A stretch of DNA of 64,000 bases from Oscillospiraceae bacterium. GTDB taxonomy: Bacteria > Bacillota > Clostridia > Oscillospirales > Acutalibacteraceae. The position numbers were made by a program, and so were the translations under genes. The DNA lies in contig SVOV01000009.1 of NCBI GenBank assembly GCA_015066205.1, positions 1-64,000 of the forward strand, written 5' to 3'. Within the stretch, counting starts at the first letter, position 1, and every line of letters begins with the position of its first letter. The notes under the pieces are model-generated. The model searched no databases, was not told the origin of the DNA, and worked only from the letters and a program-made list of their open reading frames with translations. This document shows positions 3,708 to 40,390 of the stretch, one piece after another.

Positions 3708-4277
3708 TCAGATCTCGATTCCAAGCTCCTTGATTTTGTCCTGAAGCTTGAGGAAATCCTCAAGACAGTCACCCTTTTTGCGAGGGTCTCTGAGAAGTGC
3801 CGCGGGATGGAAGGTGCCCATCATAAGAGTACCGTTTTTGTTGTAGAAGATGCCGTGATCCTTTGTGACACGGAAATCGGGGGAAATGAGCCTTTGAGCC
3901 GCAATTCTGCCGACGCAGACTATAATTTGAGGGCGCATAATGCGGACAAGCTCACGAAGCCAGTCTATACACATATCCATCTCCTCGGGCTTCGGGTCAC
4001 GGTTTTTAGGAGGTCTGCATTTCAGCATATTTGCTATGTATATATTTTCCTTTCTGTCAAGACCGATTCCGCCGAGATACAGGTCTAAAAGCTTACCGCC
4101 TCTACCGACAAAGGGCTCGCCCTGAAGATCCTCGTTTTCACCGGGTGCTTCACCGATAAAAAGAATTTTTGCATCGGGTTTTCCGACTCCGAAAACAACA
4201 TTAGTACGGGTTTCGTGAAGAGGGCATTTCTGACATTTAAGACACTCCTGTCTTAAGTCCTCCATTGTTGAAAACAT
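3708..4277 (-). CDS. uracil-DNA glycosylase, family 4 (Fe-S)
   Basis: Removes uracil from DNA as the first step of base excision repair. The 189 residues fit the short family-4 enzymes. Cys15 and Cys18 (KCQKCPL) with Cys residues near 87 (MLKCRPP) and 103-115 are the usual ligands of the 4Fe-4S cluster. Motif A is GEAPGENEDLQG (about 43-54) and motif B is the HPA of MMGTFHPAALLR (near 155). An AGGAGG site lies before the ATG at 4277; a second ATG four codons later is possible. It is a single-gene unit on the minus strand. The family is also annotated as a phage SPO1 polymerase-related protein in older databases. Confidence 0.93.
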   Translation of the reverse strand: MFSTMEDLRQECLKCQKCPLHETRTNVVFGVGKPDAKILFIGEAPGENEDLQGEPFVGRGGKLLDLYLGGIGLDRKENIYIANMLKCRPPKNRDPKPEEMDMCIDWLRELVRIMRPQIIVCVGRIAAQRLISPDFRVTKDHGIFYNKNGTLMMGTFHPAALLRDPRKKGDCLEDFLKLQDKIKELGIEI

Positions 4278-4362
4278 TCGGTATTCCTCCTGTAAATCCG
4301 TTTTTTAGGTATCCGTCAGAGATTATTTTTATACAAATTATATAATTACGGGTGGTAATTCT

Positions 4363-4378
4363 AATGTAAAATTACATT
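4363..4378. promoter_or_regulatory. palindrome in the 4278-4639 intergenic region
   Basis: The 362-bp gap between the divergent glycosylase and cohesin-like genes contains the palindrome AATGTAA-AA-TTACATT, with another AATGTAAAAT copy about 40 bp further on (4407). It may be an operator; no regulator can be named. The rest of the gap is AT-rich with the strong promoter at 4518-4546. Confidence 0.35.
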
Positions 4379-4517
4379 TTTTACAATTGACTTTAAAACA
4401 CCTATAATGTAAAATAAATAAGAAATAAATCTCCGTGTTTGGTTTATTTGATTATACACCGTAAGTTATTTTGTGTCAATAAATGAGTATTATTTGTTTA
4501 ATTTTAAAGATTTTCTA

Positions 4518-5440: not shown

Positions 5441-5661
5441 TTTGAAGCTGTATTTCTTGTATATTGAAAAAGCTTTTGTTTTTCTTATATAGAAAACTGC
5501 TTTATTGCTTCAATACAGAAAGAATTGCATTTTATCAACCTGCATATCCGTTCACGGTGGGGCAGGTATTTCTGATATTAAGAATATGGCTTACATCGAG
5601 AATGTCATTTAAATATGTAAAAACGGAAACAGCTTGTTCGAGTCGTACTCTAAAGGACAAA

Positions 5662-5695
5662 AAGAGTTAATGTAGCAAAAACTGCATTAACTCTT
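5662..5695. repeat. isolated 11-bp inverted repeat
   Basis: AAGAGTTAATG (5662-5672) is perfectly repeated inverted as CATTAACTCTT (5685-5695). It lies in the gene-free stretch 5441-5967, about 50 bp before the hairpin array, and has no adjoining gene to terminate. The sequence between 5441 and 5660 shows nothing I can support. Confidence 0.55.
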
Positions 5696-5746
5696 ACATT
5701 TTTGCACTGTCACTAAAAGTGGTGAGTAAGTGCGTTTTTAACTTTA

Positions 5747-5948
5747 AGTGGTATTCTTTCCTTCGGAAAGAGTGATATTATGCACTTTTCGGCATAGTGA
5801 TATTGAAATCTTCGATTTCAGTGTTATTTTTTTCGCATAAAACTGTCCGAAGGACAATATCACAATGCGTAGCATTATATAACTGCGAAGCAATATAACT
5901 CGCCGCAAGGCGAATAAAACTGCGTGAGTGTCCTGAGGACACCCACGC
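5747..5948. repeat. palindromic comb of short hairpins, array 1
   Basis: Non-coding array of hairpins with 3-8 base loops separated by a repeated word. Left half: AGTGGTATT (5747), AGTGATATT (5771), AGTGATATT (5796), AGTGTTATT (5820). Right half: ATAAAACT (5837), AATATCAC (5856), ATATAACT (5877), AATATAACT (5892), AATAAAACT (5913). The right words are the reverse complement of the left words, exactly or nearly. Hairpins between them include CTTTCC-TTC-GGAAAG (5756), GAAATC-TTC-GATTTC (5805), GTCC-GAA-GGAC (5845), AATGC-GTA-GCATT (5864) and CGCC-GCAA-GGCG (5901). The last and largest hairpin (5922-5948) probably also terminates the leftward GH13 gene. No reading frame with a ribosome site crosses it. 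Confidence 0.75.
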
Positions 5949-5967
5949 ATTGCTGCTTCCGTTTTTT

Positions 5968-17579: not shown

Positions 17580-18559
17580 TTATTGCTGTACTGTAATATA
17601 TCGTCCGTCTTCAGTTACAGTAACACAGAATTGCTCCGTTAACGGATAACCTTTATACTTTAAATAAAAATGGCAATTATCCCATGAATTTTCCGTAATG
17701 TAATTGTATAGCTCTTCTGTTAATTCCTGCACGGGAGCATTTTTCACGCAATCTGTAATTTTGTTGACTTTTATTTTATCTGTAATATTATCGCTGTCAT
17801 AAGGATTTATAGACATCCAGACTTCTTCTATTTCATTATTATATATATCGGGAAATCGGAAGCCTTTTTTTACATGCAGTTGATTTAATGAGGTGTCATC
17901 AGGCTGATGGAATATAAAATCATCACTTTCTCCGCAAAATGAAAAATAGGAATACGGCGGGAAAAAATCATGTATTGAATTATCCGAAATGTATACCTTT
18001 TCCCGTAATACGCTGTCTATAAGATAATAAGGATGCATTCCTGATATATTATTCCCGATAATTCCTGTTTCCCGATAAGTATCTTCTATGTCACTCCAAT
18101 CAACATAATATTGTTTTTATATAATATTCCGTTATGAAAGCCTTCATCATCATATAAAAAAGTTGCTTCATATATGGATGTGCTCATTAAATATATAGCT
18201 GTGGTCAGTGATGAAACTGATAAAATGAATACAGTTACGGTAACAATTAATAGCTTTTTTACGAAATTTCTTTGGGAAATAACCTTTTCAGTTTCTTGTA
18301 CTGCATCGAGCAGATTATCTTCCGACTTCTGAACAAAGGTTTCTTCAGATATTTTTTCGCCTAAAAGCAATTCATTTACCGTTATACCAAATATATCAGA
18401 TAGCGGAACTAAAAGAGAGGAGTCGGGCAGTCCTTTTCCTGTTTCCCATCGAGAAACGGCTTTATCCGTAACATTCAGCTTTTCTGCAAGCTGAGCTTGA
18501 GTCAATTCTATTTCTTTCCTGAGAGAGGAAATAAAAGCTCCTGTCTTGTTTTCATTCAT
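17580..18559 (-). pseudogene. frameshifted XRE-family regulator with membrane segment and extracellular domain
   Basis: The first 157 codons (18559 to 18086) encode an XRE helix-turn-helix domain (LTQAQLAEKLNVTDKAVSRW at about 19-38), a linker, a membrane segment near 103-125 (LLIVTVTVFILSVSSLTTAI) and the start of an outer domain, then hit TAG. Read one base back from the A5 run at 18114-18118, the frame continues without interruption (YYVDWSDIEDTYRETGII...) into the 152-codon frame ending at 17580. So a single gene of about 325 codons is broken by a one-base loss in a poly-A run. The site is not a canonical X-XXY-YYZ slippery heptamer. True mutation or a sequencing error are both possible. 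The HTH half may still be functional. An ATAGGAGG site precedes the ATG. Confidence 0.75.
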
Positions 18560-18625: not shown

Positions 18626-18698
18626 AATCGGCATTTAGATGCAATATTCCACCCACTTGCAAGGATGGATTTGGTTGAGCAAAAAAAGAATCTCTCTT

Positions 18699-18876
18699 AA
18701 TGAAATATTTTCCTTTAGGAAAATATGAAATAATCCTGACGGATTATGAAATTTTCTGCTACGCAGAAAGTGAAATTAAATTCGTTCCTTAACATTTGCG
18801 AAGCAAATATTTCATAGCGAAGCTATTTCATATTACGAAGTAATATTTCACTCGTTCCGCAGGAACGAATTTCATT
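18699..18876. repeat. palindromic comb of short hairpins, array 2
   Basis: Left words: ATGAAAT (18700), ATGAAAT (18725), ATGAAAT (18746), GTGAAAT (18770). Right words: ATTTCAT (18809), ATTTCAT (18825), ATTTCAC (18845), ATTTCAT (18869). Each right word is the reverse complement of a left word (with G-T where GTGAAAT is used), so four nested rungs can form. Between rungs sit hairpins on both sides: ATTTTCC/GGAAAAT (18707-18724), AATCC/GGATT (18732-18745), TTTCTGC/GCAGAAA (18753-18769), AGC-GAA-GCT (18816), ATTAC-GAA-GTAAT (18832) and TCGTTCC/GGAACGA (18852-18868). It is non-coding and lies between the HTH gene and tRNA-Leu. The stretch 18626-18698 shows nothing else I can support. Confidence 0.8.
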
Positions 18877-18910
18877 GAAAAAGCGACTTGTATCATACAA
18901 GTCGCTTTTT
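18877..18910 (-). terminator. terminator of tRNA-Leu
   Basis: AAAAAGCGACTTGT pairs with ACAAGTCGCTTTTT around a 5-base loop, directly after the tRNA 3' end on the minus strand. It abuts the hairpin array. Confidence 0.88.
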
Positions 18911-18911
18911 C

Positions 18912-18998
18912 TGGTGCGGATGACGGGAGTCGAACCCACATGAACTTGCATTCACTAGGACCTGAACCTAGCGCGTCTGCCAATTCCGCCACATCCGC
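18912..18998 (-). tRNA. tRNA-Leu (anticodon CAG)
   Basis: On the minus strand the gene starts GCGGATGTGGCGGAATTGGC, has the anticodon loop TTCAGGT (CAG, reads CUG) on a CTAGG/CCTAG stem, a long class II variable arm, the T-arm GGTTCGACTCC, and ends with an acceptor strand matching GCGGATG plus an encoded CCA. The 87-base length fits a leucine tRNA. Confidence 0.96.
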
Positions 18999-40266: not shown

Positions 40267-40280
40267 ACATATAGATTTTT

Positions 40281-40349
40281 ACATGACTGACGGATTTCGC
40301 GGTGTACCGCGGTGGAGTGTAAAAATTTTATTGCCGACCGTCTGGGCAC
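40281..40349 (+). ncRNA. ZTP/ZMP riboswitch (pfl motif)
   Basis: The RNA senses ZMP/ZTP, which accumulate when 10-formyl-tetrahydrofolate is low. The sequence has the conserved 5' core ACATGACTGACGG (compare the family GACUGGCG), a CGCGG/CCGCG hairpin (40298-40312), a GGTGGAGTGT return strand, a 17-base A/T-rich linker, and the diagnostic 3' element CCGTCTGGGCA (40338-40348). GACGG at 40288-40292 can pair with CCGTC at 40338-40342 as the pseudoknot. The GGGCA of the 3' element is also the 5' arm of the terminator that follows, so ligand binding and termination exclude each other: ligand should switch pflB on. Confidence 0.92.
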
Positions 40350-40390
40350 AATCAGCTTGTGAAATCTGATTGTGTCCCTTTTTTCTTTTT
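40344..40390 (+). terminator. riboswitch-controlled terminator
   Basis: GGGCACAATCAG (40344-40355) pairs with CTGATTGTGTCCC (40366-40378) with one bulged base, followed by T-runs. It overlaps the riboswitch 3' element by five bases. Confidence 0.92.

Follow-up and report, generated by a model that had tools for sequence, protein, structure and literature searches.

REPINs combine a short tag with a hairpin, pair as inverted copies and are dispersed through extragenic DNA. The hairpin elements of mitochondria, whether repetitive or double, contain one or two hairpins; they are described as short palindromic sequences spreading through intergenic regions, and we know of no separator word in them. 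In IS200/IS605 elements, single-strand hairpins at the ends serve as recognition sites. Gut-1 RNA (Rfam RF01706) is modeled as three hairpins that make up one sRNA and is listed as a noncoding RNA with the remark 'Human gut only' (Weinberg et al., 2010; PMC2864571). Within the open-licence literature, we found no other paper dealing with RF01706, no paper for the 'Gut-1 RNA' motif and, under most of the wordings used, none that treats palindromic intergenic repeats of Ruminococcaceae or Clostridia together with tRNA. The locus described here, which lies in a window of 64,000 nucleotides from an Oscillospiraceae bacterium (contig SVOV01000009.1, positions 1 to 64,000), matches the full Gut-1 model with its right half and scores just under the cut-off with its left half, and it has the same hairpins and UGAAAU linkers. 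It is unlike Gut-1 in having inverted halves, an outer hairpin (H0) and a closing arm, in being multicopy and often linked to tRNA genes, and in having sister families built on other words. Comparison of these sequences suggests that the seven-hairpin array is a DNA element which spreads and whose fold is retained as the sequence diverges.

In the left half of the array, 7-nt separators of sequence ATGAAAT start at 18700, 18725, and 18746, and GTGAAAT starts at 18770; in the right half, ATTTCAT starts at 18809, 18825, and 18869, and ATTTCAC at 18845. On re-reading the sequence, all eight words and positions proved to be exactly as given in a preliminary description of the locus, which had also placed a hairpin in every gap; all six gaps between neighboring separators of the same half are indeed filled. 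A further hairpin (18794-18808) lies just inside the center of the array, bringing the total to seven hairpins and eight separators. Folded as single-stranded DNA, positions 18690-18885 reach -33.6 kcal/mol, compared with -17.3 ± 2.96 kcal/mol for 200 dinucleotide shuffles, none of which was as stable (z = -5.51). A chance pattern was ruled out by this shuffle folding and by the counts of such arrays, which we call combs, behind tRNAs and in background sequence (see below).

The unit is asymmetric and larger than the stretch originally noted (18699-18876), as it takes in a perfect hairpin at 18877-18911. The whole element, from H0 to the last separator, spans about 18698-18911 on the minus strand, as delimited by alignment with seven elements elsewhere, and begins at the CCA end of the adjoining tRNA gene, whose presence had been noted before and which is tRNA-Leu(CAG) (18912-18998, minus strand). 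Read on the minus strand from this tRNA, H0 (18877-18911; GAAAAAG...CTTTTTC) comes directly after the CCA; it has 16 bp, a 3-nt loop, and a terminator-like appearance on both strands. It is followed by AATGAAAT, H1 (18852-18868; loop GCA on the plus strand), a word, H2 (18832-18844), a word, H3 (18816-18824), a word, and H4 (18794-18808). The loops of H2, H3, and H4 read GAA on the plus strand, and H3 has 3 bp, or 5 when the adjoining separator bases are included. The closing arm (18778-18788; AAATTCGTTCC on the plus strand) is the complement of 18862-18872 at 11 of 11 positions. Beyond it are ATTTCAC, H5 (18753-18769), ATTTCAT, H6 (18732-18745), ATTTCAT, H7 (18707-18724), and ATTTCATTA. Seven aligned elements at other loci of the same genome (G000) and of the related genomes G076 and G131 have the same plan, with H1 defective in the one at locus L445. 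Their resemblance to the window copy sets in behind the CCA and is lost at the last separator or shortly beyond it, and at L004 this separator already differs from that of the window element. At L445, all that stands ahead of the comb is a 3′ fragment similar to the end of a tRNA (ACACCCGCACCA), and no tRNA gene was found in that locus.

The covariance model of Gut-1 matches the right half on the minus strand (18804-18877) with 68.1 bits, above the gathering threshold of 50, and the inverted left half on the plus strand (18698-18781) with 49.1 bits, narrowly below it, so that Gut-1 covers only part of the unit. Another match in the window (5852-5922, 54 bits) was taken to be the array 1 of the preliminary description. 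A genome-wide search for further arrays had been proposed there, and the genome of origin (2.71 Mb in 83 contigs, 85% complete) does contain them: 79 Gut-1 matches at E <= 0.001 fall into 57 clusters, and 36 of these matches reach the cut-off. The motif known from the database forms one portion of a bigger repeat that is dispersed and has a conserved architecture. All 26 genomes of the genus, this one included, have a match, 23 of them above the cut-off; in a sample of the family, searched with stricter filters than the genus, 53 of 120 genomes have one (42 above the cut-off). Among 14 control genomes, only E. coli gave a match, and this was below the cut-off. Scans for the separator pattern returned at least 119 and at least 120 stretches, and a loose hairpin test was passed by 46 of the 160 loci screened, some with trivial 7-nt units. 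Among the matches listed, named records with hairpin units between separators were mostly MAGs of Clostridia, Oscillospiraceae, or Ruminococcaceae, and many MAG records came from animal guts by their titles; two were Akkermansiaceae MAGs. The latter (L156 and L159), from another phylum, have comb-like arrays with the word GTGAAAT, through either transfer or mis-binning. At E <= 0.001, a search of phages gave one 73-nt match and a search of plasmids no comb match; stem-bearing units are present in the viral-contig loci L279, L317, and L333, the last of which is situated behind tRNA-Ser.

The genome has 37 tRNA matches, 30 of which are final in their transcript unit with at least 60 nt of sequence behind them. 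By a fixed rule, a comb follows within 230 nt behind 15 of these 30 final tRNAs, whereas none of 543 background stretches taken from the window contains one, and the tRNA setting of the combs is therefore not due to chance. Reading by eye revealed at least three tRNA-linked combs that the rule had missed (C50:19951, C55:33941, and C16:18407). The proposal that architecture rather than sequence is conserved is borne out by at least five separator families of similar plan in this one genome (RTGAAAT, RTGATAT, GTTATAT-like, TATATCAT, and ATGAAGC). They occur behind tRNAs or other genes, and RTGAAAT, RTGATAT, TATATCAT, and ATGAAGC are found behind tRNAs. Other copies lie behind protein genes, and many copies in the genome, some of them behind protein genes, are one-sided and have no inverted half; the mirror layout is therefore not general. 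Among 65 two-sided elements, 2 carry different words in their two halves. A conserved tail (GAATTCATA[CT]GCAAAA...TCTTTTTT) stands behind combs of different families at five loci of G000 (L001, L002, L004, L028, and L057) and at L143 of genome G120, and no gene or function was found for it at these six loci. The combs of loci L014 and L446 belong to different families, yet their two halves enclose similar central modules (GAGC..AGCGAATAACAAGGTTC).

A long hairpin precedes 45 of the 46 tRNA-linked combs examined. Those tRNA ends that were classed as comb-free also have long hairpins that start from the CCA, with a median stem of 16 in both classes, the comb-free class including some combs overlooked by the fixed rule. 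H0 was consequently dropped as a diagnostic feature of the comb. One particular H0 sequence was nevertheless found four times in the genome, in every instance with a tRNA on one side and a comb on the other. H0 may travel with the comb or may be the native terminator. In three loci with ATGAAGC-type combs (L394, L417, and L420), the outer hairpin includes the tRNA CCA, and its far arm matches the discriminator base (GCCA/TGGC, TCCA/TGGA).

Three tRNA loci were compared across related species, and the combs differ at each of them. The tRNA-His/tRNA-Gln site carries a different comb in each of three genomes: one of the ATGAAGC type in G000, one resembling the window element in G076, and yet another in G131. 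Behind tRNA-Thr(CGT), the comb is of the RTGATAT family in G000 and of the RTGAAAT family in G076. The tRNA-Leu(TAA) locus of G000 continues with tRNA-Val, which an RTGATAT comb follows; in G076, an RTGAAAT comb directly adjoins tRNA-Leu. The window element itself is 81-87% identical to the combs behind tRNA-Gln, tRNA-Leu(TAA), and tRNA-Ser in G076; beyond the first of these, what appears to be the remnant of a TATATCAT-type comb was noted. The counterparts of tRNA-Leu(CAG) were located through the neighboring gene (identities 81%, 78%, and 76%), which we take to be YdcF-like. There is no comb behind the orthologous tRNA in G131 and G120, and no tRNA is visible at the locus in G076. A near-identical combination of H0 and comb occurs in three genera, following tRNA-Ser in L071 and tmRNA in L072 and L080. 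The genes located after a given tRNA vary among relatives. For the RTGAAAT family, the search gave no empty site that was clean and had both flanks; the window site can be compared on its tRNA side only, and no target duplication was seen.

According to the preliminary description, the separators pair as a ladder of four nested rungs with three stacked four-way junctions between them, a pairing to be checked by compensatory changes. Of the 65 two-sided elements, 32 were parsed with 4+4 separators. In these, the variable base agrees between rung partners in 91 of 128 cases (71%) and between non-partners of the same elements in 263 of 384 (68%); the rungs, and with them the junctions that rest on them, get no specific comparative support. 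In the window copy, two of the four rungs have a non-standard pair at the variable first base (18770/18809, G.T; 18725/18845, A.C). The closing arm behaves differently. It complements the end of the first word and the 5′ arm of H1, so that this arm can pair either locally or with the center of the element, in competition with H1. Of the 53 RTGAAAT-family elements that have a hairpin upstream, 29 contain an exact closing-arm match of at least 9 nt beyond the last separator, as against 7.5% when arms are swapped between elements, in a set that was picked by Gut-1 score and pattern and is thus non-random; the other 24 have no 9-nt closing arm. The corresponding values for the RTGATAT family are 6 of 20 and 4.3%. 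Among elements that have no upstream hairpin, the match occurs in 30 of 148 (3.0% swapped) for RTGAAAT and in 4 of 48 (0.5% swapped) for RTGATAT. Under a second rule, 77 of 269 half-elements have a closing-arm complement, with 21 distinct arms; second halves and one-sided combs are among the others. The arm of the first hairpin and the central closing arm co-vary.

The hairpin loops are strand-specific. Over 547 distinct units, the loops on the RTGAAAT strand are of the form T-N-C in 132 of 212 triloops with perfect stems and T-NN-C in 88 of 142 tetraloops, and are closed by C-G in 356 of 405. UNCG tetraloops on the sense strand were considered and dropped, as the stems are symmetric about a 3-nt T-N-C loop. 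On the opposite strand, the same loops read C-GNA-G and C-GNNA-G, which are unusually stable in DNA (d(GCGAAGC) type). In both inward-facing halves, opposite polarity is rare (5 of 255 for triloops, 1 of 156 for tetraloops; the three classes overlap, with 575 entries for 512 units). Because it holds both in runs that follow H0 and in the runs that face them, the polarity follows the separator word and not the direction of transcription, which favors a DNA-level element over a single sRNA. Non-standard pairs on the RTGAAAT strand comprise 58 A.C and 23 G.T (p = 1.3e-4), with 106 other mismatches counted, and the A.C excess amounts to G.T wobble on the ATTTCAY strand. The A.C:G.T ratio is 7:4 in the half next to H0, 27:6 in the facing half, and 24:13 in the rest; strand-specific mutation rather than selection could produce this bias. 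Thermodynamic tables assign equal energies to the two strands for 261 of 424 units and do not discriminate between DNA and RNA. GNRA tetraloops outnumber GNYA tetraloops 64 to 41 over all units, near the purine share at the free middle base of GNA (76 of 132). By class, the numbers are 15:4 in the H0 half, 25:19 in the facing half, and 24:18 in the rest; the H0 half alone does look GNRA-like and has only a slight excess of A.C mismatches, as an RNA reading of that half expects. On balance, the loop and mismatch signs over all units appear to favor DNA.

These signs bear on the Rfam view, under which the comb is a structured noncoding RNA gene that is transcribed and works as RNA. The Rfam match itself, the listing of Gut-1 as a noncoding RNA (Weinberg et al., 2010; PMC2864571), paired stems and co-varying arms such as RNA selection yields, the tolerance of wobble pairs on one strand, and the GNRA-type loops of the H0 half taken by itself (15 vs 4) would all suit such a gene. 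The comb, however, lies beyond the terminator-like hairpin of the tRNA, and because its halves are opposite in polarity, no single transcript has the preferred loops in both. Moreover, GNRA is not preferred over all units, and a single sRNA gene would not be expected to occupy some 57 dispersed places or to differ from comb to comb behind orthologous tRNAs. We consider an RNA gene unlikely.

Array 1 (5640-5949, minus strand) is a 310-bp comb of a sister family and apparently lies within the loop of a terminator-like hairpin, in whose flanks AAAAACGGAAACAGC faces GCTGCTTCCGTTTTT. The fetched loci contained four more full-length copies, of which G000 has three and G076 one, at 91-98% identity. 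The flanks of the full-length copies are unrelated and begin at the same base within a few nucleotides, which gives the copies sharp ends. More than a dozen other loci match only part of array 1, and seven other aligned sister copies have only its inner part in common and no clean ends. The flank stems of four of the five full-length copies lie above the 99th percentile of shuffled flanks, a limit that 2 of 20 swapped flank pairs pass as well, and three of the four copies with pairing flanks have a run of T on the right, as in terminators. Because the flanks pair in four of five copies, the sister family was probably inserted into hairpin loops, mostly those of terminators.

The combs could alternatively serve the host as a boundary, in the form of a fail-safe terminator, an insulator, or a site for a nucleoid protein or gyrase, and have spread because they are useful. 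Such a role would fit a comb behind half of the final tRNAs (15 of 30) and a long hairpin ahead of nearly every tRNA-linked comb (45 of 46), but it sits poorly with the many final tRNAs that have no comb, with orthologous sites at which combs are absent or swapped, and with sister copies at unrelated genes. We regard this explanation as distinctly improbable.

We lean, with some reserve, toward a mobile DNA element recognized by its shape, and the best reading of the comb is a non-autonomous, hairpin-recognized repeat that is REPIN-like but no proven REPIN. The array would then represent a single copy of a non-autonomous repeat that is dispersed through the DNA as combs of short hairpins and is placed, and replaced, at the ends of transcripts, either behind a tRNA or tmRNA and its terminator-like hairpin or, in the case of the sister family, in hairpin loops. 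In single-stranded DNA, each unit, consisting of a 7-nt word and a hairpin with a C-GNA-G or C-GNNA-G loop, would fold on the ATTTCAY strand. The folded unit might be read by a putative dedicated DNA-processing enzyme that moves the family, by analogy with the hairpins of REP/REPIN or IS200/IS605 elements. The closing arm would allow two alternative folds of the four-hairpin half, one a row of hairpins and the other a closed junction resembling a cloverleaf, between which it could switch, and the position behind a terminator may keep the cost to the host low.

The comb resembles REP/REPIN sequences in its combination of tag and hairpin, its inverted pairing, and its dispersed extragenic copies. 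It differs from them in its 7-nt words, in having 4+3 hairpins rather than 1+1, in its variable stems, and in its position at tRNAs and terminators. The tags of REPIN/RAYT systems are of the GTAG or CGTC type, and those of the combs are RTGAAAT, RTGATAT, and others. More tentatively, Gut-1 and its sister families may constitute a new superfamily of mobile elements recognized by folded DNA shape. Such a superfamily would possibly combine mini-hairpins that are unusually stable in single-stranded DNA, a bistable, cloverleaf-like half, insertion into or behind the hairpins that end transcripts (tRNA, tmRNA, terminators), an undescribed class of enzyme, and the swapping of whole hairpins as modules. 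On the reading as a DNA element, a database 'RNA gene' without a function would be refiled as a fragment of a DNA repeat dispersed in many uncultured gut Clostridia, and the combs would offer a testable case of DNA elements that are recognized by shape while their sequence changes freely, and of insertion into terminator loops. They would also serve as a warning that an element acting at the DNA level can give rise to co-variation, which by itself is usually taken to prove a functional RNA.

Candidate mobilizing enzymes were sought among the 26 genus genomes, 16 of which encode a Y1 transposase (PF01797) and 13 a RAYT-like gene (one a fragment). Three RAYT-like proteins score 62-76 bits against the NCBIfam model of the REP-associated transposase (cut-off 80). 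The median number of Gut-1 matches is 18 in genus genomes with RAYT and 19 in those without, and no RAYT-like gene was detected in G000 (85% complete) or G120 (95% complete, with 22 Gut-1 matches). A comb lies near a Y1 or RAYT gene in one of 15 fetched regions and is missing from the other 14 (at least 30 gene matches were listed), so that these regions do not show the flanking repeats of REPIN/RAYT systems. As the genes do not track copy counts and 14 of the 15 regions lack combs, RAYT and Y1 proteins were ruled out as mobilizer. The two IS200-like copies of the genome (L095 and L096), when read by eye, had no comb beside them and no separator words. Behind the transposase gene, each has a row of three hairpins, which recalls the hairpin ends of IS200/IS605 elements; these right ends do not contain the comb words, and by eye they are not common to the combs. 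No enzyme that moves combs was found in these searches.

In near-identical copies of the sister family, two adjacent hairpins and their separators have been exchanged as one block. This exchange of both arms together with the separators would also follow if no dedicated enzyme were involved, with template switching during replication making and repairing the palindromes and gene conversion spreading the copies, an account that leaves the fixed word, the 4+3 plan, the tRNA position, and the sharp ends of the sister copies unexplained and that we judge very unlikely. Integron-like cassette recombination sites caught behind tRNAs, which the tRNA-comb-cargo-comb order of L173 and L193 (combs 96-97% identical) and the different genes that follow the same tRNA in relatives would fit, are hardly credible and were rejected on a negative gene-orientation test, since the gene that comes next runs in the same direction in 31 of 43 cases with a comb and 36 of 51 without (p = 1; two further cases in each class had no ORF), and tandem duplication explains L070 and may explain the pairs.

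In L070 (reverse), three tandem combs with repeated spacers, the last of them incomplete, start at about position 917 behind tRNA-Leu. The paired combs that flank a short cargo behind a tRNA are located at 171-417 and 2910-3156 in L173 and at 4259-4476 and 4974-5189 in L193; the second comb of L193 has a CCA before it and a tRNA-like 3′ fragment after it. In the window, two adjacent minus-strand ORFs of 157 and 152 amino acids lie beyond the comb (17580-18559) and may represent one gene for a helix-turn-helix membrane protein that has been broken by a frameshift. A ZMP/ZTP riboswitch (63.8 bits) is located at 40273-40354.
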